This document shows, one piece after another, positions 2,118-47,895 of a stretch of DNA of 64,000 nucleotides (position 1 is its first letter; the number at the start of each line of letters is the position of its first letter). Location of the stretch: contig JAJQRF010000010.1 in the NCBI GenBank assembly GCA_021228405.1, forward strand, positions 62,001 through 126,000, in the 5' to 3' direction. A program made the position numbers and the translations under genes. Source of the DNA: Pyrinomonadaceae bacterium. Lineage in GTDB: Bacteria > Acidobacteriota > Blastocatellia > Pyrinomonadales > Pyrinomonadaceae. Below the pieces are notes generated by a model. That model was not told where the DNA came from and searched no databases. It saw only the letters and a program-made list of their open reading frames with translations.

Positions 2118-5100
2118 TTATTGAACGAAAGAGTTTTGGATGGGAAGGTCACTGTTTGCTCCGAACGTCAGTGCCTGAAATCCGCTCGTCGATCTCAGCA
2201 GATACCACGTCCCGTCGGCGGGGCGATACACGCCGACATCCGCTCGTCCGTCGCCGTCGTAGTCCGCCGCCACCGGTTTGTCGCCCGCTTGTCCGAACGT
2301 CAAAATCGTGTTCGTGTTGTTACTGCTGTTGTAGATCGCCCACAGTCCGTTTCTGAAGATCGCCGCATCCGTTTTCCCGTCGCCGTCATAATCGGCAGGA
2401 ACTAATTTGTCGCCCGCCAAGCCCCACAATGCCGCCCGCAAGTGAACACCGTTCTGACTGCTTGCCGCATAAAACCACTCTCCCGTCGAAGGACGGAACA
2501 CGGCAGGATCAGACTTGCCGTCGCCGTCGAAATCGCCGATCACGGGCTGATCGCCGACCGCACCGAACACAACCGAAGTAAAACTGCTGGTGCCGTTGAT
2601 AAGCCGATACCAGGTGCGGTTTGCCGGACGGAACACGACGAAATCGGCTTTCCCGTCGCCGTCCACATCAGAAGGAAGCGGCACGTCGCCTGACTGTCCC
2701 CAGGTCGTCACGGTTTGCAGGTTATTGTTGGCGGAAGCCGCGTAAACCCAGATACCCGAAGAAGGACGGAAAATAGAAATATCGGTTTTGCCGTCGCCAT
2801 CAAAATCGGCGGGAGTCAAAACATCGCCGCTTGCGCCGAAATATGAATAGCTGAATTGATAATTACTGCCAAGCAATTGATACCAGACAAAATTCGACGG
2901 ACGAAACACGCCGATGTCGGATTGCCCGTCACCGTCGAAGTCAAACGGCGTTATCGATCTCAGCGGAACATTTTGCAGTCTTGCGATGCCTGTCCGTGTG
3001 ATGTTCCCGATCGATGAGAAATTTCCGCCGATGACAGTTTTCCCGTCTGCCTGTAATGCCAAAGAAAGAACTGAAGAATTTGCGCCCTCACTTAAAAATA
3101 ATTTATCTAAATTTCCATTAGGTTTAAGTCTGACAATGTTTTTTCGCGGATTGTCGTTTAATTTATCAAACGTTCCGCCGACAATTATCGAACCGTCCGA
3201 ATGCAAAAGCATTTTAGATAAAACCGTCGTGTTTCCGCTCAAAGTGAAATTTGTCGTTTGAAACCCTGTGTCTGCGCTTCCGTTCGGGTTTAGTCTGAAA
3301 ATCTGATTTGAACGGATCAAATATTTACCGTCCGGTTGGCGAATGATTTCGTTAACGTTGCCGACATTTCCGGCGTTAAACCCTGTGTCGGTGCTTCCGT
3401 CAGAGTTGAGCCGTGCTATGTTTGTCCGCGCAAATCCGTTGATACCTGAAAAAATGCCGCCGACGGTTATTTTTCCGCCTGATTCAATGACTATCGAACG
3501 AATTGCGGCTGAATTTAAGATAACCGAAAAGCTGTTATCCAAACTTCCGTCCGTATTCAGTCTGACCAAAGCATTTCTCGCTTGCCCGTTTACGTTCGTG
3601 AAAGAACCGCCGACGAGTATTTTTCCGTCGCTCTGAACGCTGACGGCATCGATTCCGCCCGTGAACGCGGCTGTAAACGTGTTGTCTAAACTTCCGTTCG
3701 CATTCAAGCGGGCAATATTCTGAATCGGCGTGCCGTTATAGCTCGAAATTATTCCGCCGATCAATATTTTGCCGTCGTTTTGCAGTGCAATGACCGAAAC
3801 GACCGAATTCGGTCCGCTCCCCGTGTCAAATGTCGCATCAGCCGTTCCGTCAGGATTCAAACGTGCCAATCTTATATTGTTGACATTATTAACTTTTGAA
3901 AATGTTCCTGAAATGATGATCTTCTGATCGGTTTGAACAGCCAGAGTCTGAACCGAACCGACGGCGGCTAAAACGGGATTTCTGAATGTAACGTCGATAG
4001 TTCCGTCAACGTTCAAACGCCCGTATTGCGGAATATTTCCCGTTAATTGCCCGTAATAAACGATTTTTCCCGATGCGTCCAGACTCCAGTCATTCAGACC
4101 GATAAAGTTTGCCGCAAAACTGCTGTCAGCCGTTCCGTCCTGATTGAATCTGAAAAATACTCCATTGGCAAAATCGCCCTCAACCAATATTTTCTGATCC
4201 GGCTGAACACGAACTTTTTTGACGACACGCGAGATCGTCAACGGATAAGTCAACGAAGGATTAAACGAAAAATCGAGTCCTTGATTAGCATTAAGCCGTG
4301 CGACACCGTTTCGCTCAACTCCGTTCACGGTCGTAAAATAACCGCCAAAATCTATTTTCCCGTCGTCCTGCACGTCAAAACTCGTTACCTGCGGTCTTAT
4401 CTGAAGCGTCAGATCGTAAGTTAGAACGGGCGACTCGAAAGCCGTATCTTTACTGCCGTCCGTATTTAATCTGAATAAAAATCCGTTTGTGTGTGCGCCG
4501 CCGATCAGCACTTTTCCGTCCGGCAAAACCTTAAGCTGTCCGAAGGCTTGTCCGCCGCGAATATTAAAATTCAGCGTCGCAAACGAAGTGTCGATGCTTC
4601 CGTCGTTGTTGAGCCTGTTCAGGTTTGCCACCGTGACAAACGGTGCGGCACTGTATTTAATGCCGTAAGCCCTGCCGTCCGGCGCAGCGGCTAAAATCCT
4701 GACCGCGCTCGAAACTCCCGTCACATCCGAATTAAGTGCCGAAACGTATGAATTGTCGAGGCTTCCGTCCGAATTGAAACGATAAATGCGCGGAAGTCCG
4801 TTATTCGTTCCAGCGACGATAATTTTGCCGTCAGGCTGGACGACGGCACTCGATATGCCTGTGAAAACAACACTGCACTGATTGCATAAAAAGGAATCGT
4901 CGAGCGAACCGTCGGAATTTAAACGAGCGATAAAAGGACGCGCAACGCCGTTGACGTTATTGACTTTGTAAATAAGAATTTTTCCGTCAGGTTGGAGCGT
5001 TAAATAGCCGCTTATATCCGTGTCGGTTCCGTTTGAAAGCGAAGTATTAAAGCTTTGATCGATCTGGTTCGACTGTGCCGACAGATTCTGCACAAAACCA

Positions 5101-5168
5101 CAAAACAAAAGATTAGCCAAAAATATGAAAAGAGCAATTTTTTTTTCGGGAATAAATTTCACAGACAT
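2118..5168 (-). CDS. secreted delta-60 / FG-GAP (VCBS) repeat protein
   Basis: A 1016-residue exported protein. The ATG at 5168 follows AAAGGAGAAACTCT, a strong ribosome site. The N-terminal signal peptide has a hydrophobic core (IALFIFLANLLFCGFV) and ends near LSAQS. Residues about 35-700 hold many roughly 50-residue delta-60 beta-propeller-like repeats with the signature L-N-x-D-G-S-x-D-x-S-F alternating with Q-x-D-G-K-I-L-V-G-G. Residues about 715-1016 hold about six FG-GAP/VCBS repeats with Ca-binding-like D-F-D-G-D-G-x-x-D motifs and V-F-R-P-S/A. Both repeat classes fold as propeller or beta-sandwich surface domains. No catalytic motif and no C-terminal sorting signal was seen. Probably a surface or matrix protein. 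Confidence 0.9.
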   Translation of the reverse strand: MSVKFIPEKKIALFIFLANLLFCGFVQNLSAQSNQIDQSFNTSLSNGTDTDISGYLTLQPDGKILIYKVNNVNGVARPFIARLNSDGSLDDSFLCNQCSVVFTGISSAVVQPDGKIIVAGTNNGLPRIYRFNSDGSLDNSYVSALNSDVTGVSSAVRILAAAPDGRAYGIKYSAAPFVTVANLNRLNNDGSIDTSFATLNFNIRGGQAFGQLKVLPDGKVLIGGAHTNGFLFRLNTDGSKDTAFESPVLTYDLTLQIRPQVTSFDVQDDGKIDFGGYFTTVNGVERNGVARLNANQGLDFSFNPSLTYPLTISRVVKKVRVQPDQKILVEGDFANGVFFRFNQDGTADSSFAANFIGLNDWSLDASGKIVYYGQLTGNIPQYGRLNVDGTIDVTFRNPVLAAVGSVQTLAVQTDQKIIISGTFSKVNNVNNIRLARLNPDGTADATFDTGSGPNSVVSVIALQNDGKILIGGIISSYNGTPIQNIARLNANGSLDNTFTAAFTGGIDAVSVQSDGKILVGGSFTNVNGQARNALVRLNTDGSLDNSFSVILNSAAIRSIVIESGGKITVGGIFSGINGFARTNIARLNSDGSTDTGFNAGNVGNVNEIIRQPDGKYLIRSNQIFRLNPNGSADTGFQTTNFTLSGNTTVLSKMLLHSDGSIIVGGTFDKLNDNPRKNIVRLKPNGNLDKLFLSEGANSSVLSLALQADGKTVIGGNFSSIGNITRTGIARLQNVPLRSITPFDFDGDGQSDIGVFRPSNFVWYQLLGSNYQFSYSYFGASGDVLTPADFDGDGKTDISIFRPSSGIWVYAASANNNLQTVTTWGQSGDVPLPSDVDGDGKADFVVFRPANRTWYRLINGTSSFTSVVFGAVGDQPVIGDFDGDGKSDPAVFRPSTGEWFYAASSQNGVHLRAALWGLAGDKLVPADYDGDGKTDAAIFRNGLWAIYNSSNNTNTILTFGQAGDKPVAADYDGDGRADVGVYRPADGTWYLLRSTSGFQALTFGANSDLPIQNSFVQ

Positions 5169-10365: not shown

Positions 10366-13197
10366 ATGCTCTCACGTAAAGGTCGCATATATTCTTTCGG
10401 TTCGCTGACTTTGGTTGGTTTAGTGTCGTCTTTGGTCGGCGTTTTAACACAATCGCCCGAAGCGGGTGTTGCGGCAGGTGCGGTCACAGTCACGGCGGCA
10501 CAAAGCGGGATTCTTTCGATTCTGCAAGATAAAGGTTTCGACCTGACAATCAAACTTCTCGAAGCGTGCGGAGCGATCGGACTCGAATTAGGTGCCGATG
10601 ATGCGCGGCAAGTCTTACTCGAAGTTTCAAAAAAGCTCAAAGACAATGACGGAGCGCAAAATCACGATATTGCAAAAGCCGTTCGCCAAGCGATTCTTTC
10701 CATTCTTGAAAGTGAAAAGGAAGAATTAACGGATAAAGACGACAAAGCCTCGATCGAACTAATACTAGAAACGACACAAGCAACCTGGGCTTGGGTCGTT
10801 TTGCTCGAACAAGATAATTTAGTAAGCATTTCCGAGGAAAAAATTCCTTATTTTTTTTCGGTCAAAGCTAATGAAATTACTAAAATAGAATCGCCGGTTA
10901 AAGAAAGTGAATGGAAACTTATTTTACTTGAAATTGCGCGTCAAAATGATTGCAATTTAACTGAAATTTCGCTCAATAAACTTGCACATTCTTTATATTC
11001 AAAATTTCCGCAATCACTCCGCGAAGTTTTTGTACAAGATTTTGCAAACGAAGGCGTTGCTTACGGCAAATTATTGCTCGCTTTGGTCAGCGATATAAAC
11101 GCTTCACAGGCTGAAATTCTCGATGAAATTATCAATGTTTCTAAAAAACTGGATAAATACCACTACGAAAATAGAGAATGGTTCAAAGCACTTTTACAAG
11201 CGATCAAAAATTTATCCAATCCGCCCGATAATTCATCTAATCCGTCCAAAATTCCGACCAAACTTCCCGTTTCGCGGTTTCCGATGCGCGTTCAGTTTTT
11301 TACGGGACGCAAAGATGTTTTGATCGGCATCAAAGATTCGTTGAAAACGCACAAAACTGCCGCGCTTTGCGGTGTTCACGGGCTTGGGAAATCTTCGGTC
11401 GTGACGGAATTTGCTTATTTGAATGAAAATAATTACAAACATATTTTCTTTATTCGCGCCGTCGGTGCGGATTTCGACATTTTTATCGGCGAAATTGTCA
11501 GCGATCTAAACATTCCGACCGATGAACAGACTACGCCTGCTCAAAAACTGCAAATATTTCAACATTGGCTGGCGGAAAATGATAATTGGCTGTTGATCTT
11601 GGACAATGTTGACGACGTTTTGGCGATAAAAGATTGCAGATTCACCAATCACACAGGCGATGTGGTTTTTACGGCAAATAAATCAGATATTTATGATCTG
11701 GGAAAGCAAGTCAAAATTTTTAAAATGGCGACCGACGAAGCCGCTCAACTTCTTTTGCGTCATAAAAATAAAGATGCCTCAATCACATTGGAAAAGGTTT
11801 CAACCGTTGAAGCCGAAAATGCGCGAAATATTGCCGAACATTTTGGCAATTCACCGCTGGCAATGTCTTTTGTCGGTTCTTATTTGAATAAAAAACGCAA
11901 AACTTTTGCCGAATTTCTCGATAATTACCAAGATCGTGAGAAAAATCTTTTAGCAAATTACGAATTTTTATCGAATTATTTTGAACATTTCAAAGATGCT
12001 GAACGAAAAGCGGTTGCAACGGCTTTTTTGAATACATTCGGGTATATTACGACGGCAAAAAATGATTCCGAAAAAGAAACATTTATCGCTCGCGCGGTTG
12101 ATTCCTACCTGAAAATCAGTGCTTTTGTTGCGCCTGAAAATATTCCCGAAGATTTCTTTATCGAATGTTTGAAAAAACTCGACCCCAAATACATAAATTT
12201 TGTCGAAGATGAAGATTTAATCGATGAAGTAAAGGAAAGACTTTACGAATTTGCCATTTTCGACCGCGATGTCGACCAAAAAACCTTTTCAACGCACCGT
12301 TTAGTTCAAGAAGTAATGCGTTTTAAACTAAAAAATGAAGAAGATCGTTTATTAGAGATCATTTCAGAAACTTTAAATGCAGTTGTTCCCTTTTTTGATT
12401 ACACGAACAAAGAAAAAGTAGAACCTTATTTGGCACATTTGGAAAGTTTTATTGAATATCTGGTCAAGGCAAAAGAAAATTCAGCCGATATTACAAAATT
12501 GGATAATCAATCAACTAATGTGTTGAGTTATAAAATTGCTAGATATAACAAAGATTTTGGGCAATATAACACAGCTAAAAAATATTGTCTTATCTGCCGT
12601 GATATTTGTGAAAAAATTTACGGAAACGAACATCAAGAAACAGCATCGAGCTACTGTAATTTAGGTAATGTTTATTATTCACAAGGCGATTATCCGAATG
12701 CCGAAGAAAATCATCTTAAAGATTTAAAGATTTGCTTAAATATCTTTGGTGAGAATCATCCTTTGACGGCATCGAGCTACAATAATTTAGGTAATGTTTA
12801 TTATTCACAAGGCGATTATCCGAAAGCCGAAGAATATTATCTTAAATCATTGCAGATTAAGTTAAATATTTTTGATGAGAATCATCCCGATATGGCAATG
12901 AGCTACATGGGTTTAGGTCTTGTTTATGATTCACAAGGCGATTATCCGAAAGCCGAAGAAAATCATCTCAAAGCATTGCAGATTAAGTTAAATATTTTTG
13001 GTGAGAATCATCCCTCGACGGCAATGAGCTACAATAATTTAGGTCTTGTTTATGAAAATCAAGATAAATTGATCGAATCTGAAGAATACTATGTAAAAGC
13101 GTTGGAAATTTATCGAAAGTTTTTGTCTGAAAATCATCCTTATATTCTTCAAGTAAAAAATAATTTAAAAATAGTGCGAGAAAAAATGGGAAAGTAA
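10366..13197 (+). CDS. NB-ARC/TPR STAND ATPase, candidate defence or signalling protein
   Basis: 943 residues, ATG preceded by GAAGGTG at 7 bp. Residues 1-60 are rich in Gly, Ala and hydrophobics (GSLTLVGLVSSLVGVL and later stretches) and could be a membrane-active N-terminal module; residues 60-300 are mostly helical with no match I can name. The NB-ARC ATPase follows: G-R-K-D-V-L near 325, Walker A GVHGLGKSS at 336-344, Walker B LLILDNVDD near 409, then F-G-N-S-P-L-A-M-S-F, the GxP motif. Residues about 757-930 hold four nearly identical 42-residue kinesin-light-chain-type TPRs (YNNLGNVYYSQGDYPKAEE). Bacterial STAND ATPases of this plan include antiphage sensors, the TPRs reading a ligand; the role here is inferred. 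The second half is more AT-rich than neighbours, and the gene is bracketed by palindromic repeats. Confidence 0.85.
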   Translation: MLSRKGRIYSFGSLTLVGLVSSLVGVLTQSPEAGVAAGAVTVTAAQSGILSILQDKGFDLTIKLLEACGAIGLELGADDARQVLLEVSKKLKDNDGAQNHDIAKAVRQAILSILESEKEELTDKDDKASIELILETTQATWAWVVLLEQDNLVSISEEKIPYFFSVKANEITKIESPVKESEWKLILLEIARQNDCNLTEISLNKLAHSLYSKFPQSLREVFVQDFANEGVAYGKLLLALVSDINASQAEILDEIINVSKKLDKYHYENREWFKALLQAIKNLSNPPDNSSNPSKIPTKLPVSRFPMRVQFFTGRKDVLIGIKDSLKTHKTAALCGVHGLGKSSVVTEFAYLNENNYKHIFFIRAVGADFDIFIGEIVSDLNIPTDEQTTPAQKLQIFQHWLAENDNWLLILDNVDDVLAIKDCRFTNHTGDVVFTANKSDIYDLGKQVKIFKMATDEAAQLLLRHKNKDASITLEKVSTVEAENARNIAEHFGNSPLAMSFVGSYLNKKRKTFAEFLDNYQDREKNLLANYEFLSNYFEHFKDAERKAVATAFLNTFGYITTAKNDSEKETFIARAVDSYLKISAFVAPENIPEDFFIECLKKLDPKYINFVEDEDLIDEVKERLYEFAIFDRDVDQKTFSTHRLVQEVMRFKLKNEEDRLLEIISETLNAVVPFFDYTNKEKVEPYLAHLESFIEYLVKAKENSADITKLDNQSTNVLSYKIARYNKDFGQYNTAKKYCLICRDICEKIYGNEHQETASSYCNLGNVYYSQGDYPNAEENHLKDLKICLNIFGENHPLTASSYNNLGNVYYSQGDYPKAEEYYLKSLQIKLNIFDENHPDMAMSYMGLGLVYDSQGDYPKAEENHLKALQIKLNIFGENHPSTAMSYNNLGLVYENQDKLIESEEYYVKALEIYRKFLSENHPYILQVKNNLKIVREKMGK
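12634..13095 (+). repeat. near-identical 126-bp TPR-coding repeats
   Basis: Inside the STAND gene, the 126-bp unit (ACGGCATCGAGCTACAATAA region, then TTAGGTAATGTTTATTATTC) recurs about four times with very few differences. Such DNA-level identity suggests recent duplication or gene conversion, so repeat number may vary between strains. Confidence 0.75.
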
Positions 13198-18765: not shown

Positions 18766-19359
18766 TTAAATCCGATTTCTAATGACGCTCATATCGTATT
18801 CCGGTTTTTCAATAATCATTCTTTGACTCGCGGGATAAGTGTTGTTATCGGCTAAATACCGCATCACGTTGTGAGCAAGCGTCCGGTCGAGCGTTTCGCG
18901 GTCGCTTCTCAAAGCATTCACCGCAATATTTCTTCCGATCTCGTTATTTCGATAATCCATTGCGTGACGCGCGGCGGTGTTTCCCGAAATCGTCACAAAC
19001 GGCGGATCGTTTTCGTGTGCGTCGCCGAAAGCTTTCGCCCACCAAACGCCGTATTGAATCGCACGTTCCCAACGTTCCGCTTCCGAACCGCCCAACAAAT
19101 TATCGAAAAATTCGCCGATTCTGCCGCCGCCGTTGACATATTGTTCTGTATAAGCCCAAAGTGCCAGATGTTTTACCATCAAAGCGTTCCAGTAAGCGTG
19201 TTTGAAAGCATTTTGTTCGGTGTCGTCCGGCGAATGCGTTCTGCCGTCGTCGAAAAGTGTGTTTGCCAAATGTTCCGCGATTTTCGCGCAATTATAACCG
19301 ATTGCCGCCCGTGTCGGATCGGCAACCGCAAGTGCCGCTTCAGCAGGTCTGATTGCCAT
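18766..19359 (-). CDS. DUF6973-like protein
   Basis: 197 residues, no signal peptide. The conserved core is N-A-F-K-H-A-Y-W-N-A-L-M, then A-K-A-F-G-D-A-H-E and A-M-D-Y-R-N-N-E-I-G-R, the pattern I associate with DUF6973, found as a free protein and as a C-terminal domain of some secreted or toxin-like proteins. The spaced H, E, D and N residues could form a metal or catalytic centre, but no activity is established. Convergent with the potassium channel gene. Single gene. Confidence 0.7.
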   Translation of the reverse strand: MAIRPAEAALAVADPTRAAIGYNCAKIAEHLANTLFDDGRTHSPDDTEQNAFKHAYWNALMVKHLALWAYTEQYVNGGGRIGEFFDNLLGGSEAERWERAIQYGVWWAKAFGDAHENDPPFVTISGNTAARHAMDYRNNEIGRNIAVNALRSDRETLDRTLAHNVMRYLADNNTYPASQRMIIEKPEYDMSVIRNRI

Positions 19360-36514: not shown

Positions 36515-37102
36515 TTAATTTTCCGAAGCCGTGATTTCGACGTTTCGCCATTGGATCATCATATTAAAGACGCTTTTCGCAAATTCGACCTTCATAAATC
36601 CGTGCATATTTACGCTTTGATCGGTGTAGATCGTTCTCATCGGCATTTGTCTGGAATCCGTCACGGTGATCGCGCCCGTGATGGTGATCGGGATGTATTT
36701 TACGATCGGTCTGCCGTAAGGAAACTGGATCGGGATCGACCAGTCCCCGGCGGTAATCGTCAAACCGCCGAGGCTTGCCCATTCGCCCAAACCTTGCGGA
36801 GTTCCGTTTGTAAGCCAGTTGTCAGTATAAAAACTTCCCGAAAAAGCCGCTCCTTTCCGGCACGGAACGCAATCGACAAACGGCGCATTGAAAATGCCGC
36901 GTGTCGCCTGACGATAAAATTCACCGCCGTTTTCGTCGGTTCCGCTCATCGAAAAGCCGCCGTAACCGTTCATTACGAGCGTTCGGTCGGTAACAATATT
37001 GATCGAATTGATGTTTACGGAACGATTCTGATCTTGGCAGAAGATGTTGGTAATTGATCCGGCAACAAGGAATACTAGTAGGAATAGTAAAACTTTTTTC
37101 AT
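36515..37102 (-). CDS. secreted hypothetical protein
   Basis: 195 residues. Signal peptide MKKVLLFLLVFLVAGSITNIFC ends near Q-D-Q-N; the Cys could make it a lipoprotein but the lipobox context (N-I-F-C) is poor. The mature part is predicted beta-rich with Gly and Thr and a C-V-P-C pair near residue 84 that might form a disulfide or bind a metal. No family recognised. Start supported by AGGAAATATG (GAGGAAAT upstream of the ATG). Probably single-gene. Confidence 0.75.
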   Translation of the reverse strand: MKKVLLFLLVFLVAGSITNIFCQDQNRSVNINSINIVTDRTLVMNGYGGFSMSGTDENGGEFYRQATRGIFNAPFVDCVPCRKGAAFSGSFYTDNWLTNGTPQGLGEWASLGGLTITAGDWSIPIQFPYGRPIVKYIPITITGAITVTDSRQMPMRTIYTDQSVNMHGFMKVEFAKSVFNMMIQWRNVEITASEN

Positions 37103-39173: not shown

Positions 39174-41261
39174 TTACAACGCTTTCAGACTTATCAGTAA
39201 TCGGGAGTTGAGCTTAACATCGACGCGCCGATCTTTCGGTTCGGGTTTATTATCGGTTCGACCTGCCGCTTTCGCTTCGTTTTCGCCTTTTCCGACGACT
39301 TTTATTTGCGAGTCGGGAATCTTGAAATTGCTTCCGAGAATATCCCTGATGGCTTGCTCCGTATTTGACGCTCTCAAAGCGGAAAGCGTTAAATTACGCT
39401 CATCCGTATCGACCCGATCCGTGTGTCCGATGATCTCCAAACTGCTCGACGGCGTTGAAAAAGCGACCAATTCATTTGCACAAACTATCCGCAAAGCCTG
39501 TCGCGCATCTTCGGTCAAAACTGCACTGCCGAGGCAAAAATGCGTGTCGTTTTTCAGTTTGTAGTCCGCCGCATAATCGGTGATCGCAATGCTCTTCGTG
39601 GCATCGAAATCCTTGAAGGTCTTCGACCTGATCTTTCCGAAAGGCAAGGCTTTTCCGCCCGCTTTCGGAGCTTTGGGTTTCAGCTTTAAATCCACGTCCG
39701 TATAACCGACATCCATCGGCGGCAGATAGCCCGAACCGAAAATTTGCATAAATCCTGCCGCCGCACTACTGCCGAACGAAATGCCTATTTCACCCAATCG
39801 AATCGTTCCCGGAAAATCCGGTTCGACCCATTCGTGATAAGTTTCGGCTCTGCCGACCATTTCATCTCTGAACGAAACATCCAAACCGCCGCCGAAAAAG
39901 TGAACGCCGAAAGTTTCCTTCCATTTTCTGCCGTTTAGTTTTTCGATGGTGATCTTCCCGAAATAACCGCCGATAATGATCGCAGCTCCCGTCAATTTCA
40001 ACGTGACTTTGTATTGGTGCATCGGAGCCGACGGGTCGGCATTGTTGTTGCTCGATCGCAAACCGAGATATTTTTCGATAGGTTTTAAAGTGTATCCGTT
40101 TCGGCTGTTGACATCGAGCATTATCTGAATCCAATCGAGTTGTGAACGCGTGATTTGCTTAAATTTCCATTTATTATTGGTCAAAATGGTCTTGGCATAA
40201 AACTGTGCCAATTCGAGGTCTTCGTCGTTTACGCCGTAAAATCCGTTCGTAAAAACGTCGGCTATATAGTAGCCCACTTTTGCCGCCGCCGATGCCATTG
40301 CACTTTTATCGGCATATTTTATTCCTGCCGGAGTCGAAAAATATTTCTCCAGTTGAGCCGCAACTTTATCAGTCGAAAGTCCTCTCACCAGATTCTTTAT
40401 CTGTGCCAGAGTCAGCGGAAATTTTTCGTGAAGCCAAACGAGCTTATCAAAACTGCTCGTGTTCATTAAAGTCGGATTATCGGAGATTTTCGTCAGCGTG
40501 CCCTTTTTTCCGCTGAGTTCCCATTCGATTGTTCCGCTCTTCGGTCGGAAATATCCCCAATTCCCGCTCGGATCGCGGCGATCGAAAAATAAATACGAGC
40601 CGTCAGACTGCAAATCTCCGTAAAACTCCGTGAACGGTCTGCTCACCTCGTCATCGTCCTCGTGAAATATCCAGCCTTTCGGTCGCTGATCGGGATATAG
40701 AACCTTTGTTATAATTCCTTCGATATGCCGTCCGGCTTGGTTTATTCTGATCGTCCAATCCGTCTTGATTTTCCCGTTGATATTGATCTGATTTTCATAG
40801 TGCCCCGTAATGTCGATTTTCGGTTTGTCGGGTTTCGGGTCTGACAAAATACGTTCGACTTTCTGACAGACAACGCCGCCTTTCTGCGCCAGCGGCGGCG
40901 AAGGTCTTGCCATCAAGCCGCGAATACTGCTTTTTACCTGTCCCCAGAATTGCACGTATTTCTTTTCCGCGACCGGATTTTTTATGTTGCAGTAACCGCG
41001 TTCCTTCCCGTATTTGGCGTGAAAAAGCATTTTGGTCAGCGTTGCAATGTCGCGGATTCCGTGATGGATCGCCAGAATAATCGCATTGTTCCAATCTTCT
41101 TCTTGAAGCGCGTTCTGCACATCGGACGGAAGTGTGGCGAAAAACTTTTCCCAGTTTTTTCGGCAAGTTTCCAATTCGGGAGTTTCTCTTTCTGGCTTCA
41201 TAAAATCGGAATTTCTCAAAAGAAGTCCGATCTCGCTTTCAAATCTCAATCTTTCTCGCAT
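39174..41261 (-). CDS. large protein with C-terminal OmpA-like peptidoglycan-binding domain
   Basis: 695 residues, last gene of a four-gene minus-strand operon. No signal peptide is visible. Residues about 18-120 are helical and Trp-rich. Residues about 150-260 contain a G-H-Y-x-N-Q-I-N-I beta-rich domain ending in G-T-L-T-K-I; the middle (about 290-490) is of unknown type. The C-terminal 140 residues are OmpA-like: L-E-I-I-G-H-T-D-R-V-D-T-D-E-R-N-L-T-L-S-A-L-R-A, then V-V-G-K-G-E-N-E-A and a terminal R-R-V-D-V-K, so the peptidoglycan-binding D/R pair is kept. Starts 15 bp after the gene at 41277. The role with its neighbours is unknown. Confidence 0.7.
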   Translation of the reverse strand: MRERLRFESEIGLLLRNSDFMKPERETPELETCRKNWEKFFATLPSDVQNALQEEDWNNAIILAIHHGIRDIATLTKMLFHAKYGKERGYCNIKNPVAEKKYVQFWGQVKSSIRGLMARPSPPLAQKGGVVCQKVERILSDPKPDKPKIDITGHYENQININGKIKTDWTIRINQAGRHIEGIITKVLYPDQRPKGWIFHEDDDEVSRPFTEFYGDLQSDGSYLFFDRRDPSGNWGYFRPKSGTIEWELSGKKGTLTKISDNPTLMNTSSFDKLVWLHEKFPLTLAQIKNLVRGLSTDKVAAQLEKYFSTPAGIKYADKSAMASAAAKVGYYIADVFTNGFYGVNDEDLELAQFYAKTILTNNKWKFKQITRSQLDWIQIMLDVNSRNGYTLKPIEKYLGLRSSNNNADPSAPMHQYKVTLKLTGAAIIIGGYFGKITIEKLNGRKWKETFGVHFFGGGLDVSFRDEMVGRAETYHEWVEPDFPGTIRLGEIGISFGSSAAAGFMQIFGSGYLPPMDVGYTDVDLKLKPKAPKAGGKALPFGKIRSKTFKDFDATKSIAITDYAADYKLKNDTHFCLGSAVLTEDARQALRIVCANELVAFSTPSSSLEIIGHTDRVDTDERNLTLSALRASNTEQAIRDILGSNFKIPDSQIKVVGKGENEAKAAGRTDNKPEPKDRRVDVKLNSRLLISLKAL

Positions 41262-41276
41262 AAATTTTCACCTCAT

Positions 41277-42815
41277 TTATACTTTTTGTTCGATCTTTGC
41301 CGTTTGCGGATCGCCGAGATCGATGCCCGTCAAGCTTCTGTATGCGGTGCGGTAGCCTTCGACCTTTCCTTCGATCAAATTTATCCAAAGTTCCAATTCG
41401 CCGCCGATTTCGATCTTCTCCTGGTCGATGACTTCGAGATCGAGCAAAATGTCCCGCGCATTATTGGCGCAATCGCGGTGCAGATTGTAGCGGTTCGACT
41501 CCGAAGGCATAATCTGACTTTGCTTTATCAAAATGTCGTAAGCCGCCGGAATATATTCGTAAGGTTTGTCGTATTCGGGCGGTATGCCGAGCGTGGTGCG
41601 CAGATCGCGAATCAAAGCCATTCCCGCGATCACCCAAACGATGCCGTGCAAGGTATGCGAATAATTTCGCCCGTAATCGAACGGGTCAAAGGCTTTTTTC
41701 AGCAGTCCGATCGTGTCTTTGATCGAAATCAAGGTGGCGACCGATGTTTTTGAAACCGGGCTGTTGATTCCCTGAATCGCGGTCGCAAGTCTTTTATCCT
41801 TGTAAAATTCGAGCGTCGTTTGGATGAATTTATGAAACAGATTCGTAAACGCGTCGTTAACGACCGTGTCGAGATTCAAACCTCTGCCTTCGTCCAAAAT
41901 CCAGCCGATTCCGCGTCGATATGAAACGTTTCGATCTCTGACCGTCGAAGAAAGCCCGATCTTCGTTTTGCGAACCATCGACTCCAAAACCAGCGCGATA
42001 TGGTCGTCTTTTCCTTTGTTTACGGCGGCATTCACCGAGCCGTTGGAAAGCGGAAGTTTGCCTTTGATCGCGTAATCGTCGAGAATCGCGCCGAGAATCT
42101 TAAAGATTCCCATGCGGTCGAAATAGAACAGCCAGACCAGATCGGCAATAAATAAACGGCGAATCTTTCCAAACCTGATTTCGTCCGTTATTTCGTATAA
42201 ATGACGGCTTCCCGCGATCTTCACGCACGAAGGCGGCAGACACCAGAACGGCGGAAACTTCAACTGAAAACTTCGCTGATTGTTGACCGCTTCAACCCTT
42301 TCGTTTCCGCAATCGGTCGCTCTGACATTAGGAAACCATTTGCCGCTGCAATCCAATAATTTCGGGTCGATCAACTCTTCCAGAACAAAGTCTTCGGCGG
42401 CAACACTGTTGTCGCAAAATCTGAAATAATCCTTGAAATAAGCGGTTATTTCGTCGTCATTGGCATCGCCGACCGTGTTTATCAGGGACAATAAAACATC
42501 CGTGCATTCGGGCATCGGGACGCTGATCGGCTTGATAAATTTCTGGGCGCGCGAATTCGGAATTTCGGCTTCGCCGGTTAATCGCAGATTTATTTTTCTC
42601 TTCAAATCTTCGATTTCCGCGCTTTCGTTGTCCGCAGTTCCCAAAGCCGCCGTTCTCTGCATTGAAGGGATTTGTTCGCCCGTCAGCAAACGGCGAACGA
42701 GTTCTTCGAGAGCGTTTAACTTATCGTCCTGAACGTATGTTTTCTCGACGGCAGTTGTTTTTTCTTCGGCAGTAGTATTTTTTTCCTGATTCGATTCTGA
42801 TTCTGTCTTAGGCAT
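41277..42815 (-). CDS. hypothetical protein of the four-gene operon
   Basis: 512 residues. The first 75 residues are Glu/Thr/Lys-rich and probably disordered, with a coiled segment (LNALEELVRRLLTG). The rest appears globular and mostly helical (LFIADLVWLFYFDRMGIFKIL, YSHTLHGIVWVIAGMALIRDL), with three Cys between 150 and 200. No signal peptide, no known motif. Ribosome site AAGGAGAATGAAAA just upstream of the ATG. Not recognised; conserved operon context would be the way in. Confidence 0.7.
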   Translation of the reverse strand: MPKTESESNQEKNTTAEEKTTAVEKTYVQDDKLNALEELVRRLLTGEQIPSMQRTAALGTADNESAEIEDLKRKINLRLTGEAEIPNSRAQKFIKPISVPMPECTDVLLSLINTVGDANDDEITAYFKDYFRFCDNSVAAEDFVLEELIDPKLLDCSGKWFPNVRATDCGNERVEAVNNQRSFQLKFPPFWCLPPSCVKIAGSRHLYEITDEIRFGKIRRLFIADLVWLFYFDRMGIFKILGAILDDYAIKGKLPLSNGSVNAAVNKGKDDHIALVLESMVRKTKIGLSSTVRDRNVSYRRGIGWILDEGRGLNLDTVVNDAFTNLFHKFIQTTLEFYKDKRLATAIQGINSPVSKTSVATLISIKDTIGLLKKAFDPFDYGRNYSHTLHGIVWVIAGMALIRDLRTTLGIPPEYDKPYEYIPAAYDILIKQSQIMPSESNRYNLHRDCANNARDILLDLEVIDQEKIEIGGELELWINLIEGKVEGYRTAYRSLTGIDLGDPQTAKIEQKV

Positions 42816-42827
42816 TTTTCATTCTCC

Positions 42828-44093
42828 TTACTTTTTCTTTTCTAAATTGTTTTTTTCACCGAGTTTTAATAACCATTCGGACATAATTTTGTCCATTTTT
42901 TCCTCGTCCACCTTTTTTTCGTCCTTGTAAATGCGAAATGCGGCAAGCTGGGCGGCGGGCGAAAGACCTTTCAGATTTATCTTTCCCTCCGCCGACCGTT
43001 TCAGCGTATTTTTCAGATTTGCCGGGGCAATCGCCGAAAGATCGAAAAGAGCCGAGATCGGTTTTCTGCCGAGTGTGCGAAATCTCGTTTTCAACAAAAC
43101 TCTGCCGATCACGGGCACGAATTTCCGCATTTCACCAATCACACCGCGCATTTCAACGGGCGCATCTTTCAGCGGATAAAGTTCGAGCCATTCGCTTTCC
43201 CAATCGTCCCAAACTCCGCTTCCCCAAACCTGCCTGCACCAATCAAATGAAATCAGCGCGCGCAGATACGGCGGCGGATGCGGATCGCCCCACGAAATCC
43301 GAAAAACCTGATGCGAAGGCAAAGCCAAAATCTCCCTGATGGTTGCCGCTTGCGCGATTCCGCTCAAACAAAACGTCCAAAAGTCGGGACCGATTTCCGA
43401 ACTCCAAAGCCTGAACGAATCCCGAATCAACCCGCTCGCTCCCGCATTTTTAAGGGCTTTGTTAAAGGCTTCGGGAATCGTCGCAATCAGATTCAGCCGG
43501 ACCATCGCTTCGTGTCCTGCTTCGTGAAAAATCGATGTCAGATTGCATTTTTCCTTGAGCCGCGAATACGGAATCTGGATCAATGGAATCGGATTTATGC
43601 CGCGTCCGGGCAGATTCACGCCTTCGCGCAAGGTCGATGCGCCGAAACCGCGGTCGCAGTAAACGAGCGGCGGTTCGACGACCGACAACGCCGGATGATC
43701 TTTGCGGATGGCTTCGTCGGCGAGCACGTCGCAACCCGCGAGCATTCTCCCGATTTCCGAAAGATGCCTTTGCGTCAGTAGATCGGCGTAAGTATCAAAG
43801 AACGTGTAGGCTTTCGACATTTCTATTTCAATCTCGCCCAGACTTTCATTGAAATTTCTTGCCGAATCGATTTTCCCGGTCTGCGGCGAATAAAGCTTTG
43901 TGACTTTTTTCAGCCGCCGCATCAATCTGATCTCGACCGCCTTCAGTTCGGATTCGATCACGAACCATTGCCGCTCGGAAATGTCGTGCGCTTCAGGTAA
44001 AGCGACCGATTTACGCAGTTTCGACAAAGATTCGATTCGCAATCTGAGCGACGAAACGCGGTTTTTAAAGCTGGTTGTTGCCGTTTTCATCAT
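42828..44093 (-). CDS. putative zinc metallopeptidase (HExxH) of the four-gene operon
   Basis: 421 residues, no signal peptide. N-terminal 130 residues are helical and Arg/Leu-rich. The likely metal site is I-F-H-E-A-G-H-E-A-M at about residue 195, and W-S-S-E-I-G-P-D-F-W about 40 residues on could give the third ligand Glu, a gluzincin-like spacing seen in several small peptidases. The C-terminus is Lys/Glu-rich. Activity is not proven; if active, the natural candidate substrate is the acidic-leader protein encoded 1 bp upstream. The start is at 44093 with the preceding stop next to it, so translation is coupled. Confidence 0.65.
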   Translation of the reverse strand: MMKTATTSFKNRVSSLRLRIESLSKLRKSVALPEAHDISERQWFVIESELKAVEIRLMRRLKKVTKLYSPQTGKIDSARNFNESLGEIEIEMSKAYTFFDTYADLLTQRHLSEIGRMLAGCDVLADEAIRKDHPALSVVEPPLVYCDRGFGASTLREGVNLPGRGINPIPLIQIPYSRLKEKCNLTSIFHEAGHEAMVRLNLIATIPEAFNKALKNAGASGLIRDSFRLWSSEIGPDFWTFCLSGIAQAATIREILALPSHQVFRISWGDPHPPPYLRALISFDWCRQVWGSGVWDDWESEWLELYPLKDAPVEMRGVIGEMRKFVPVIGRVLLKTRFRTLGRKPISALFDLSAIAPANLKNTLKRSAEGKINLKGLSPAAQLAAFRIYKDEKKVDEEKMDKIMSEWLLKLGEKNNLEKKK

Positions 44094-44094
44094 T

Positions 44095-44967
44095 TTATTT
44101 CCGCTGTATCACGACAATGACTTCACCCGGTTGAGCATAAATGCGGCGCACTTTTTTCTTGTGAAGTCCGCCGACTTGCCGCCGTCCGTGATGCCGTCCG
44201 TGATGCGCCCGATGATGCTTTTTCACGGCTTTTTGGAAAGCATTTGTCGCCAACCGGCTGGCTTCGAGCGGGTTATCGACGTTTTCATTGATGTCCTGCG
44301 CAAGATTTTCAAAGGCTTCCCGCGCAACTTCGGCGTATCGGTTAAATGCGTCACGATTTGCGTCCGAATCCATTCCAGATTCAAAGCCGAATCCCTTCAA
44401 AACAGGCATCAATGCCGCTCCCGCCGGATGTGCGGAAAGCGCGGCTTTAAGTGCGGGTTTTATCAACGCGCCGAGATTTCCTTTAAGCAATCCGCTGACA
44501 GGTCCGAGCATCGATTTCAAAGCCTCTATCGATGGAAGATTGATTCCCGCTTTTTTCGCCAGATCGACTCCCTTTTTCGCGATCTTTTGCGCCAGTCCTT
44601 TTGCCTTTTTCAGAACTCCGCCGAGAAAGAATTCCTGCTCCATTTCGGTCAGCAGGTTGTCAACGGCTTCGTCAATCTCCGATTCCGATTCAAACTCCCT
44701 TTGCGACAATTCAAAAAATCGTTCGCCATAATCCGAATTATCCGTTTCGAGCCACTCATATTCGTTTTGCGGTTCTTCGGCGTATTCTTCTATTTCAAGA
44801 TCGTCGATTTCGTAATCGTCCGATTCATAATTTTCATCTGTTTCGTAGCTTTCCAATTCGGATTCTTCTGTTGCTCCCGTATTTTCAAACTCGAACTCAT
44901 CATCCATTTCGAGTTCAAACTCGGCTTCCATTTCCGATAGTTGCGATTCTTTAGCGTTTCTATACAT
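44095..44967 (-). CDS. acidic-leader / cationic-core protein
   Basis: 290 residues, first gene of the operon, ATG at 44967 after AAGGAGAACGGAA. Three parts: residues 1-110 are extremely Glu/Asp/Tyr-rich (E-F-E-L-E-M-D-D-E-F-E-F and repeated E-S-D-x-Y-E); residues about 112-200 are Lys/Gly/Leu-rich and amphipathic (F-F-L-G-G-V-L-K-K-A-K-G-L-A-Q-K, then L-K-S-M-L-G-P-V-S-G-L-L-K-G); the tail is His/Arg-rich (K-K-H-H-R-A-H-H-G-R-H-H-G-R-R). I recall a broadly similar acidic head plus glycine-rich core in uncharacterised proteins of several phyla, but cannot name the family. Plan suggests charge-neutralised packing or a precursor, which is an inference. Confidence 0.65.
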   Translation of the reverse strand: MYRNAKESQLSEMEAEFELEMDDEFEFENTGATEESELESYETDENYESDDYEIDDLEIEEYAEEPQNEYEWLETDNSDYGERFFELSQREFESESEIDEAVDNLLTEMEQEFFLGGVLKKAKGLAQKIAKKGVDLAKKAGINLPSIEALKSMLGPVSGLLKGNLGALIKPALKAALSAHPAGAALMPVLKGFGFESGMDSDANRDAFNRYAEVAREAFENLAQDINENVDNPLEASRLATNAFQKAVKKHHRAHHGRHHGRRQVGGLHKKKVRRIYAQPGEVIVVIQRK

Positions 44968-45135: not shown

Positions 45136-47895
45136 ATGTCATTCAAAACAAACAATTTCGAGTTTGACGACTTTTCTCTCGATACGATTGAAAAAGTTTT
45201 ATTGCGCAAAGGAAAACCTGTTCAGATCACTCCGAAAGCCTTTGAACTTCTGCAGATTCTCGTAGAAAATCATCATCATCTGGTCGAAAAATCGGTCTTG
45301 ATGAATACTGTCTGGAAGGAAAGTTTCGTCGAAGAAGGCAATGTCACTTTTACCGTCTGGCAGTTGCGAAATGTCCTCGAAGACGACCGCCATCATCCGC
45401 GTTTTATCGAAACCGTGCCCAAACGCGGTTATCGTTTCATCGGCAATGTGCGGGAAATCCGATCTGAAAACAAGCCGCTTTCGGAAATTTCTTTTGAGCC
45501 GATTCCCTACAAGCCGGCAAATTTCCTGAATCAGGATTTCTTAAATACCGAACAAAATCTGAATTTTTCCGCTTTCCCGGAAAACGATCCTGATACTCAA
45601 ACCGGTCAAACGACGATTTCGATTTCGGGACATAAAACTCTTTTCGGACGGACTTCCGAGATCGAAGCGATTGACGATCTGTTGAAACGCGAAGATGTCA
45701 GATTGATTTCGCTGACTGGAATCGGAGGTTCGGGAAAAACGAGTTTGGCGCGTGTCGTCGCCGAAAGATGCCGCGAATATTTTCCCGATAATATTTATTT
45801 TGTTGAGCTTGTGCCGATATTCGATGCCGATTTTGTCGTTCCCGCCATCGCGCAGACGCTCGACGTAAAGGAATCGGGCAACAAGTCTTTGCAGGAAACT
45901 TTGCAGAGTTTTTTGTCGAAAAGAAAAACCCTGCTGATTTTGGATAATTTTGAGCAGGTAATTTCAGCCGCGCCGATTCTTTCAAAGATCATTTCCGCAA
46001 CTTCTTACTTGAAGATTTTGGTGACAAGTCGCGCTTCGCTCCGGCTTTCGATTGAAAACGAAAAGATCGTTTCCCCGCTCGAAGTTCCGTTCTTCGGGAT
46101 CGATAAAAAGCATTTTGCGGAATTGGCGCAGTTTTCATCGGTGCAAATGTTTGTCGAACGGGCGCAAACGGTCAAGCCTAATTTCGTTTTGAATGAAAGA
46201 AATGCGCAGGACATTGGAGAAATCTGTGCACGTCTGGACGGGTTGCCTTTAGCTTTGGAGCTTGCGGCGGCGAGAATCAGGCTTCTCAAACCGTCGGCGA
46301 TCCTGAAACGGTTGGAAAACCGTCTGCAATTGCTGACTTCGGGAAGCAAGGATTTGCCGGCACGTCAGCAAACCCTGCGCGATACCATCGAATGGAGCTA
46401 CGAGCTTTTGACCGAGCAGGAAAAGAACATTTTCAGACAAGTTTCCGTTTTTGCGGGTGGATTTTACGCCGAAACCGTCGAAGCCGTTTGTGAAAATCCG
46501 CAAAACGGCACGGAAATTCTTGATGGTTTGGAATCTTTGCTCACGAACAATCTGCTTGTTCAAACGGAAGATATGGACGGCGAAACGCGTCTGTCGATGC
46601 TTGAAACAATCAGAGAATTTGCGTCCGAAAAACTTGCCGAAAATGCCGTGGCGGAAAAAACCATTCGCCAGCGTCACGCCGAATATTTTTTGAACTACGC
46701 GAAAAAGATCGAACGCGAAGTCGTTGGAGTGAAGCAGGTTTTTCTGCTTAATCAAATGGAAGCCGAGCGCGACAATTTTCGGGCGGCAATGACTTGGTTT
46801 CAGGATACTTCAAATGAAAACGAGCTGAAACTCGCCGCTTCGCTCGCGCCTTTGTGGTCGTTTCGCGGTTATTTGAGCGAAGGAATCGAACGTTTGAGCG
46901 CAGTTTTGGCAAGAAATCCTAACGCTTCGACCGCCGTTCGTGCCAAAGCGTCGGCGTGGCTCGGACAATTGATCTGGGTCAAAGGCGATTACGTCAAAGC
47001 GATCGAAGTTTGCGAAAACGCGCTTCGATTGGCGAATGAAATCGATTACCCGATCATTGCCGCGCTCGCCAATTTCATTCTCGGAATGTCGCATTGGTAT
47101 AAATATAATGATTCGGAAACTGCAATTTCGCACCTCGAAACGGGTTTGGCACTTTACCGAAAGCTCGAATTCGATTCGGGAATCGTGTTTATGCTCGTCG
47201 TGCTTGCCGCCATCGCGCAATCGAAAGGCGAATTGCTCAAAGCCGAAGAATTTTTAAAGGAAAGTTTCGCGGCGGCTGAAAGAACCGAAAATAATCTCGC
47301 GCTTTCGATCGCCAAAGTAAACTACGGGCGTTTGGAAATCGCCAAAGGAAACCTCGAACGCGCCAAAGAACTTTGCCGCGACAGCTTAAAACTTCGCGGC
47401 GAGATTTCCGACCGTTGGGGTTTGGTGCAATGCCTCGAACCTTTGACGAATATTGCTTTGAAAGAAGGAAATGCACGTCACGCCGCGAAAATGCTCGGCG
47501 CGATCGACGTTTTGCTCGAATCGCTCGGCGCGTCGCCGCCTTTGATTCTTCGCGCCGACCACGAACCGAACATCGCCGCCGCCCGCAAATTTCTCGATGA
47601 AAAAACATTCGATGAATTTTTCAATTCAGGTCGCAAACTGGCAACCGCCGAAATCGTCGAACTCGCTTTCGATGACAGTTTCAGCAATGAAAATTCGTCC
47701 GCGCAATTATCAAACGACACGAAAATTGCTCAAGAAAACACAACGAAAACCGATATTCACACAAACACAAAAGGAGAATCTGAAATTCTTGATAAAAAAC
47801 CGCCCGAAAGCAATTTTACTTTTATAATCATTGCCTCGGTCTTCGTTGTTATCTTGCTAATTTCGATTTTTCTCTATTATTTGCTTCGCACTTAA
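45136..47895 (+). CDS. wHTH - NB-ARC - TPR regulator with C-terminal membrane anchor
   Basis: 919 residues, AGGGAG before the ATG. Residues 1-105 are an OmpR-type winged helix (Trans_reg_C): I-T-P-K-A-F-E-L-L-Q-I-L-V-E-N, V-W-Q-L-R-N-V-L and the wing K-R-G-Y-R-F. A STAND ATPase follows: Walker A G-I-G-G-S-G-K-T-S at 195-203, Walker B L-L-I-L-D-N-F-E-Q, and G-L-P-L-A-L-E-L-A-A-A-R as the GxP motif. Residues about 480-870 are TPR-like helices. A single membrane helix (FIIIASVFVVILLISIFLYYLL) ends the protein, so the DNA-binding head would act from the membrane, as in CadC but with the helix at the other end. Divergent from the four-gene operon by 168 bp. Confidence 0.85.
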   Translation: MSFKTNNFEFDDFSLDTIEKVLLRKGKPVQITPKAFELLQILVENHHHLVEKSVLMNTVWKESFVEEGNVTFTVWQLRNVLEDDRHHPRFIETVPKRGYRFIGNVREIRSENKPLSEISFEPIPYKPANFLNQDFLNTEQNLNFSAFPENDPDTQTGQTTISISGHKTLFGRTSEIEAIDDLLKREDVRLISLTGIGGSGKTSLARVVAERCREYFPDNIYFVELVPIFDADFVVPAIAQTLDVKESGNKSLQETLQSFLSKRKTLLILDNFEQVISAAPILSKIISATSYLKILVTSRASLRLSIENEKIVSPLEVPFFGIDKKHFAELAQFSSVQMFVERAQTVKPNFVLNERNAQDIGEICARLDGLPLALELAAARIRLLKPSAILKRLENRLQLLTSGSKDLPARQQTLRDTIEWSYELLTEQEKNIFRQVSVFAGGFYAETVEAVCENPQNGTEILDGLESLLTNNLLVQTEDMDGETRLSMLETIREFASEKLAENAVAEKTIRQRHAEYFLNYAKKIEREVVGVKQVFLLNQMEAERDNFRAAMTWFQDTSNENELKLAASLAPLWSFRGYLSEGIERLSAVLARNPNASTAVRAKASAWLGQLIWVKGDYVKAIEVCENALRLANEIDYPIIAALANFILGMSHWYKYNDSETAISHLETGLALYRKLEFDSGIVFMLVVLAAIAQSKGELLKAEEFLKESFAAAERTENNLALSIAKVNYGRLEIAKGNLERAKELCRDSLKLRGEISDRWGLVQCLEPLTNIALKEGNARHAAKMLGAIDVLLESLGASPPLILRADHEPNIAAARKFLDEKTFDEFFNSGRKLATAEIVELAFDDSFSNENSSAQLSNDTKIAQENTTKTDIHTNTKGESEILDKKPPESNFTFIIIASVFVVILLISIFLYYLLRT

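Follow-up and report, generated by a model that had tools for sequence, protein, structure and literature searches.

A conserved three-gene core with interchangeable, N-terminally tagged cargo: a possible undescribed delivery system from a Pyrinomonadaceae bacterium

Within a 64,000-nucleotide stretch of a Pyrinomonadaceae bacterium genome (assembly GCA_021228405.1, contig JAJQRF010000010.1, positions 62,001 to 126,000; hereafter the window), four open reading frames (ORFs) follow one another on the minus strand, with spacings of 1, 12 and 15 bp in the ORF listing, and encode the proteins here named P1 to P4 (Table 1). The locus raises the question of which of these genes belong together and what their products might do, given an initial annotation had proposed that all four form a new multi-gene system. 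The same-strand operon and the new system both withstood closer analysis, but the unit is a core of three genes and the fourth, the OmpA-domain gene, is swappable. The reading favoured here, at a probability of about 0.42, is that P1, P2 and P3 are the core of an undescribed tagged-cargo system, with P4 the cargo of this copy, and that the complex is a weapon against other bacteria.

P2 was used as the bait in locus searches, and an alignment-based search with one genome per species matched 291 P2 relatives, from which 80 loci were kept. Of 89 loci, 78 had P3 directly after P2, in most cases no more than ~30 bp away, and an automatic search placed an acidic P1-like ORF upstream of P2 in 78 loci, a generous count given the search picked acidic candidates. 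The P2 loci come from at least 12 phyla (Acidobacteriota, Myxococcota, Bacteroidota, Planctomycetota, Pseudomonadota, Actinomycetota, Nitrospirota, Chloroflexota, Calditrichota, Gemmatimonadota, Verrucomicrobiota and others), and the P1-P2-P3 order recurs in tens of genomes spread over many phyla. Co-occurrence of the genes in other genomes, the check set beforehand by the initial annotation, was thus found for genes 1 to 3, which are a conserved core. In a few loci, actinobacterial for the most part, a far larger protein stands in the place of P1 and P3 was not detected. Large proteins (~750-900 aa) occupy the P1 slot in L008 (6605-8995), L025, L074, L075, L078 and L081, mostly Actinomycetota, and some of them have SPF motifs near the N-terminus.

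P4 is one of many interchangeable cargo proteins, not a fixed partner. Full-length relatives were found only in L016 and relatives of the C-terminal half in L022, with no match on plasmids. Across the window's clade (L016-L023) the genes 3' of P3 are unrelated, encoding a PhoD phosphatase, VanY, an M15 protein with a peptidoglycan (PG)-binding domain, an M74 endopeptidase, an AHH nuclease, OmpA and trypsin. The N-termini of this cargo align as [EQ]Rxx[FL]xxE[ILV]xx[LV], with the Arg/Lys, Phe/Leu, Glu and Leu/Val positions fixed in 16 of 16 proteins. The initial annotation had correctly called the OmpA domain of P4, for which relatives in the PDB were also found and over which PADLOC returned its single match to P4 (ZorB/MotB), but had overlooked the N-terminal tag common to the downstream proteins. 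The strict tag pattern was present in 13 of 22 downstream genes and in none of the other 117 genes at these loci; the significance of this difference is overstated, given the tag patterns were drawn up post hoc on the very sequences counted, and the absence from same-locus genes is more telling. Within the window's own genome, MRERxRFExE with at most one mismatch matches at P4 only. The [LFM]ExE[FILY] core of the tag also occurs near the N-terminus of P1, in 9 of 9 P1 proteins and 10 of 16 cargo proteins, against a background of 0 of 99 in the same loci and 13 of 1160 more widely.

In other clades the cargo is flanked by a BioF-like pyridoxal phosphate (PLP) enzyme on one side and an amidohydrolase/M20 block on the other. 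Starts of the FExxPF type are enriched in this cargo (13/59 vs 17/1014), and the trypsin of L090 begins with MTERLTFEAEPFE, an intermediate of both tag types. Most cargo of these clades has PG-binding, wall-hydrolase, OmpA or trypsin domains. The domains counted over 59 cargo proteins are PG_binding (23), trypsin (11), OmpA (9), Amidase_2 (5), VanY (3), glucosaminidase (1) and APOBEC-like deaminase (1). Overall, the cargo domains chiefly bind or cut the cell wall or are proteases; a few are toxin-like, of the nuclease or deaminase kind. An Adhaeribacter gene in the cargo position (L059:10692-11822) encodes an APOBEC/SNAD4-like deaminase domain (Pfam 1.9e-9).

Signal peptides were judged by hydropathy only. 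The maximum Kyte-Doolittle 11-mer within the first 45 residues was -0.38 for P1, 0.47 for P2, 0.41 for P3 and 0.89 for P4, compared with 3.55 in a nearby exported-type protein (36515-37102), in agreement with the initial view that none of the four has a signal peptide. Signal-like N-termini above threshold were found in 0 of 14 window-clade and 1 of 59 other-clade cargo proteins.

The description of P1 as an acidic head joined to an amphipathic core and a His/Arg tail is borne out by the charge of each part (Table 1), and the end of the tail is predicted from sequence to be a beta-hairpin-like stretch. The P1 family is alignable end to end, with acidic aromatic repeats, ELAxELLEVxxExELDxFLG, a Gly-zipper stretch and a C-terminal GRWxRRGxxIIL; in the main clade the proteins start with MHD(I/L)DRT and end with SGRWVRRGNRIILxGV. 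Charge polarity extends across the family, with negative heads in 62 of 62 proteins and a positive body in 61 of 62. GxxxGxxxG glycine-zipper repeats are present in 64 of 71 P1 proteins, and 62 bodies alone contain them vs ~27 in shuffled bodies. Matches between P1 and designed helical proteins in PDB profiles look like composition, not kinship, and a long antisense ORF across P1 (43900-44940, plus strand) was treated as spurious. Second P1-like proteins with an extra Cys motif (CxCPxC/CxCxxC) stand at the cargo position in L012:20276-21001, L043:14400-15086, L086:15507-16277 and L087:9636-10316.

The peptidase call for P2 also stood. Residues H190, E191, H194, E233 and D237 do not vary among 42 relatives, and the catalytic part of the AlphaFold2 (AF2) model (pLDDT 93.5) aligned with BepA (M48; Z 7.7 over 164 aa) and PepO (M13; Z 7.5 over 175 aa), both middling scores, while Foldseek returned nothing significant with the same model. 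The invariant HExxH...E and the structural alignment to BepA and PepO support P2 as a gluzincin-type zincin with predicted zinc binding and peptidase activity. P2 shares with M48 and M13 gluzincins the HExxH, the downstream Glu and this weak structural match, but differs in having its own N-terminal helical bundle and no sequence-family match. For P3, Foldseek gave nothing significant and VIA (Z at most 5.2) no convincing known fold; the VIA rows are mostly helical bundles, F-BAR and alpha-pore toxins among them, and are given no interpretation. Pfam, NCBIfam, PADLOC (its anti-phage models included) and PHROGs searches of P1-P3 returned nothing significant, and PDB sequence profiles found no real relatives.

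The distribution of the system is patchy. P2 matches were found in 5 of 199 Acidobacteriota genomes; the own genome is one of the five, and two of the other four reached no better than E 4e-4 and 8e-4. None of the 13 other Pyrinomonadaceae genomes had a match. In Hymenobacteraceae, 18 of 150 genomes have P2 and the remainder have nothing. The window's P2 falls in a supported clade (98/96) that takes in Acidobacteriota, Myxococcota, Bacteroidota and Planctomycetota. This all-or-none pattern and the mixing of four phyla in a supported clade suggest that the system spread by lateral transfer. Rhizobial and burkholderial megaplasmids, the source of the first neighbourhoods, carry P2 relatives; on a Bradyrhizobium plasmid (L013, 9264-29309) a distant one, WP_176535413.1, lies among S8, patatin, PLD, CHAT, M4 and GMC genes. 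No P2 relative was found in phage records, and none of 49 pattern matches in viral contigs was confirmed, so a phage origin is not favoured within the records and contigs searched.

In the weapon reading, the tag would act as a docking helix that places each enzyme on a common partner, P1 or P3. P1 may be a membrane-active glycine-zipper carrier whose acidic head keeps it soluble, and P2 would trim P1, the tags or both. Once loaded and released, by lysis or another non-classical route, the complex would have cell walls outside the producing cell as its target. The wider claim, that of a phylum-crossing protein delivery with no known secretion machine, where wall-cutting enzymes or toxins dock by a short tag at their N-terminus on P1 as carrier and P2 and P3 handle this carrier, is doubtful. 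Besides the post hoc origin of the tag patterns, several observations weigh against the weapon reading. P1 could be membrane-active, as the initial annotation proposed, but its hydrophobicity is low (best 19-mer 1.18) and 0 of 70 P1 proteins exceed 1.6; the lack of a strongly hydrophobic segment weakens a classical membrane-pore reading. A transport machine, a membrane protein and a lysis gene are all absent from the conserved core. The window neighbours and recurrent neighbour clusters contain neither type I secretion genes nor a small membrane immunity protein in ORF lists that leave out very small ORFs. Finally, a pure weapon leaves unexplained the BioF-like PLP enzyme, amidohydrolase and M20 peptidase that accompany the core in other clades.

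The last of these would suit a different function, in which P1 is a ribosomally made precursor and P2, elsewhere together with the PLP, amidohydrolase and M20 enzymes, matures its cationic C-terminus to a peptide product or signal, the downstream enzymes being accessory. The conserved acidic leader, the conserved P1 C-terminus of the main clade, the adjoining peptidase and the nearby BioF/CqsA-like PLP enzyme and its two companions are all consistent with this. Such a precursor is nonetheless unlikely, given the window's clade is without those three enzymes, the P1 body is long and conserved where typical cores are short, and the tags common to wall enzymes are left unexplained. The same tagged wall enzymes could instead serve the producer's own cell, with P1-P3 holding them until needed for envelope remodelling or programmed self-lysis. 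Cargo that is chiefly peptidoglycan-binding or hydrolysing and without export signals fits this role, as does the fact that no dedicated immunity gene was recognised, a further point against a weapon. The patchy distribution (18/150 Hymenobacteraceae, at most 5/199 sampled Acidobacteriota) and the toxin-like cargo (AHH nuclease, APOBEC-like deaminase) suit an accessory conflict system better, and an own-cell role is considered unlikely.

Export through a contractile system, as the initial annotation had suggested besides lysis, would require that the cargo is loaded into an extracellular contractile injection system (eCIS) or type VI secretion system (T6SS) encoded elsewhere, with the tag as the loading signal and P1-P3 as accessory chaperones. 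The eCIS marker Pvc16_N was present in 23 of 49 P2-positive genomes vs 13 of 199 Acidobacteriota, and within Acidobacteriota in 2 of 5 P2-positive vs 11 of 194 P2-negative genomes (p 0.035). The own genome has both a T6SS TssK (on C18) and an eCIS-like locus with sheath, tube, spike, gp25 and baseplate genes (L101, C4:316001-336000, and the end of L100), but the latter lies on another contig, unlinked to P1-P4. Within Hymenobacteraceae the association is gone (3/18 P2-positive vs 20/132 P2-negative, p 1.0), and this family-level control weakens the eCIS as carrier and leaves the contractile route without support there. Among 26 eCIS-negative carriers, Phage_sheath_1 was found in 2 and TssK in 8, counts from which divergent systems may escape and which include several incomplete metagenome-assembled genomes; TssK was found in 9 of 27 searched genomes, the own genome counted, and divergent TssK may escape here too. 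Judged by these markers, the system does not need a contractile carrier, and contractile loading appears quite improbable.

The tagged-cargo reading has partial parallels among described systems. RIX-domain polymorphic T6SS effectors (PMC10435454) also have a common N-terminal sequence ahead of unrelated toxic or cargo-binding C-terminal domains and are signal-less. RIX spans ~55 aa, is rich in arginine and linked to the T6SS, and has been reported from Vibrionaceae and Moritellaceae only, whereas the tag here is ~13 aa, Glu/Phe/Arg based, beside P1-P2-P3 and spread across phyla, with many carriers in which no T6SS was found; this comparison draws on the published description of RIX. Toxins associated with eCIS (PMC11297309) are likewise signal-less, with peptidoglycan-binding domains in some and N-terminal sorting presumed. 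The eCIS signal is reported to have no conserved sequence (PMC11297309), in contrast to the sequence-conserved tag here, which lies apart from eCIS genes and does not co-occur with them within Hymenobacteraceae. The Cdz bacteriocins of Caulobacter (PMC5380434) are glycine-zipper proteins with a horizontally patchy distribution, as is P1, but CdzC/D, at 84-86 aa, come with a dedicated type I secretion system and the immunity protein CdzI, whereas P1 proteins are ~220-300 aa and charge-polar, and neither type I secretion nor an immunity gene was found beside P1. No description of this architecture was found in the open literature, subscription papers being outside the search, and the P1-P2-P3 system is regarded as undescribed on the basis of missing library matches and these limited literature searches.

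The divergent gene upstream of P1 encodes a winged-helix/NB-ARC/TPR protein that is a candidate regulator of the operon. Relatives that are 51-53% identical in the DNA-binding region are encoded by divergent genes upstream of P1 in L017 and L020. Promoter and terminator scans were at or below chance. In many main-clade loci, for example L047:16737-18131 (minus strand), a convergent sigma-54 activator gene is present, belonging to a cluster of 48 loci that includes ordinary response regulators. Elsewhere in the window are a 197-aa protein with a DUF6973 domain (18766-19359, minus strand; 3e-21), a 943-aa NB-ARC/STAND-like ATPase with C-terminal TPR repeats (10366-13197, plus strand), a type known from bacterial conflict and signalling proteins, and a 1016-aa exported-looking protein with DUF5122 beta-propeller and FG-GAP repeats (2118-5168, minus strand).

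Table 1. Positions in the window of the four genes, their parts and the divergent regulator gene.
Feature	Position	Strand	Description
P1	44095..44967	-	290 aa; charge-polar protein; family kept 5' of P2
P1 acidic head	44638-44967	-	residues 1-110; net charge -41
P1 N-terminal motif LSEMEAEFELEM	44905..44940	-	same [LFM]ExE[FILY] core as cargo tag
P1 Gly/Ala-rich helical core	44233-44637	-	residues 111-245; net charge +3; GPVSGLLKG glycine zipper
P1 basic His/Arg tail	44098-44232	-	residues 246-290; net charge +13; 7 His
P2	42828..44093	-	421 aa; predicted gluzincin-like zinc metallopeptidase; N-terminal 3-helix bundle and catalytic part
P2 HEAGH zinc motif	43512..43526	-	residues 190-194; kept in 42 relatives save the middle A/T/V position
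P2 third zinc ligand, probably E233	43395-43397	-	invariant in 42 relatives
P3	41277..42815	-	512 aa; all-helical; no significant PDB match to its fold
P3 ordered domain	41283-42152	-	residues 222-511; all-helical; AF2 pLDDT ~90
P4	39174..41261	-	695 aa; variable cargo of this locus; C-terminal OmpA-like peptidoglycan-binding domain
P4 N-terminal tag MRERLRFESEIGLL	41220..41261	-	tag common to 16 downstream proteins
P4 OmpA-like domain	39249-39533	-	residues 577-671; Pfam OmpA 7.8e-12, 45.8 bits vs cut-off 27.2
Divergent winged-helix/NB-ARC/TPR regulator gene	45136..47895	+	Pfam; candidate operon regulator

Three unnamed protein families that travel together in at least 12 phyla, accompanied by a rotating set of tagged, signal-less wall enzymes, point to a sorting or delivery principle that is absent from the curated libraries searched. 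The tag provides a handle for finding cargo and could reveal new antibacterial enzymes.
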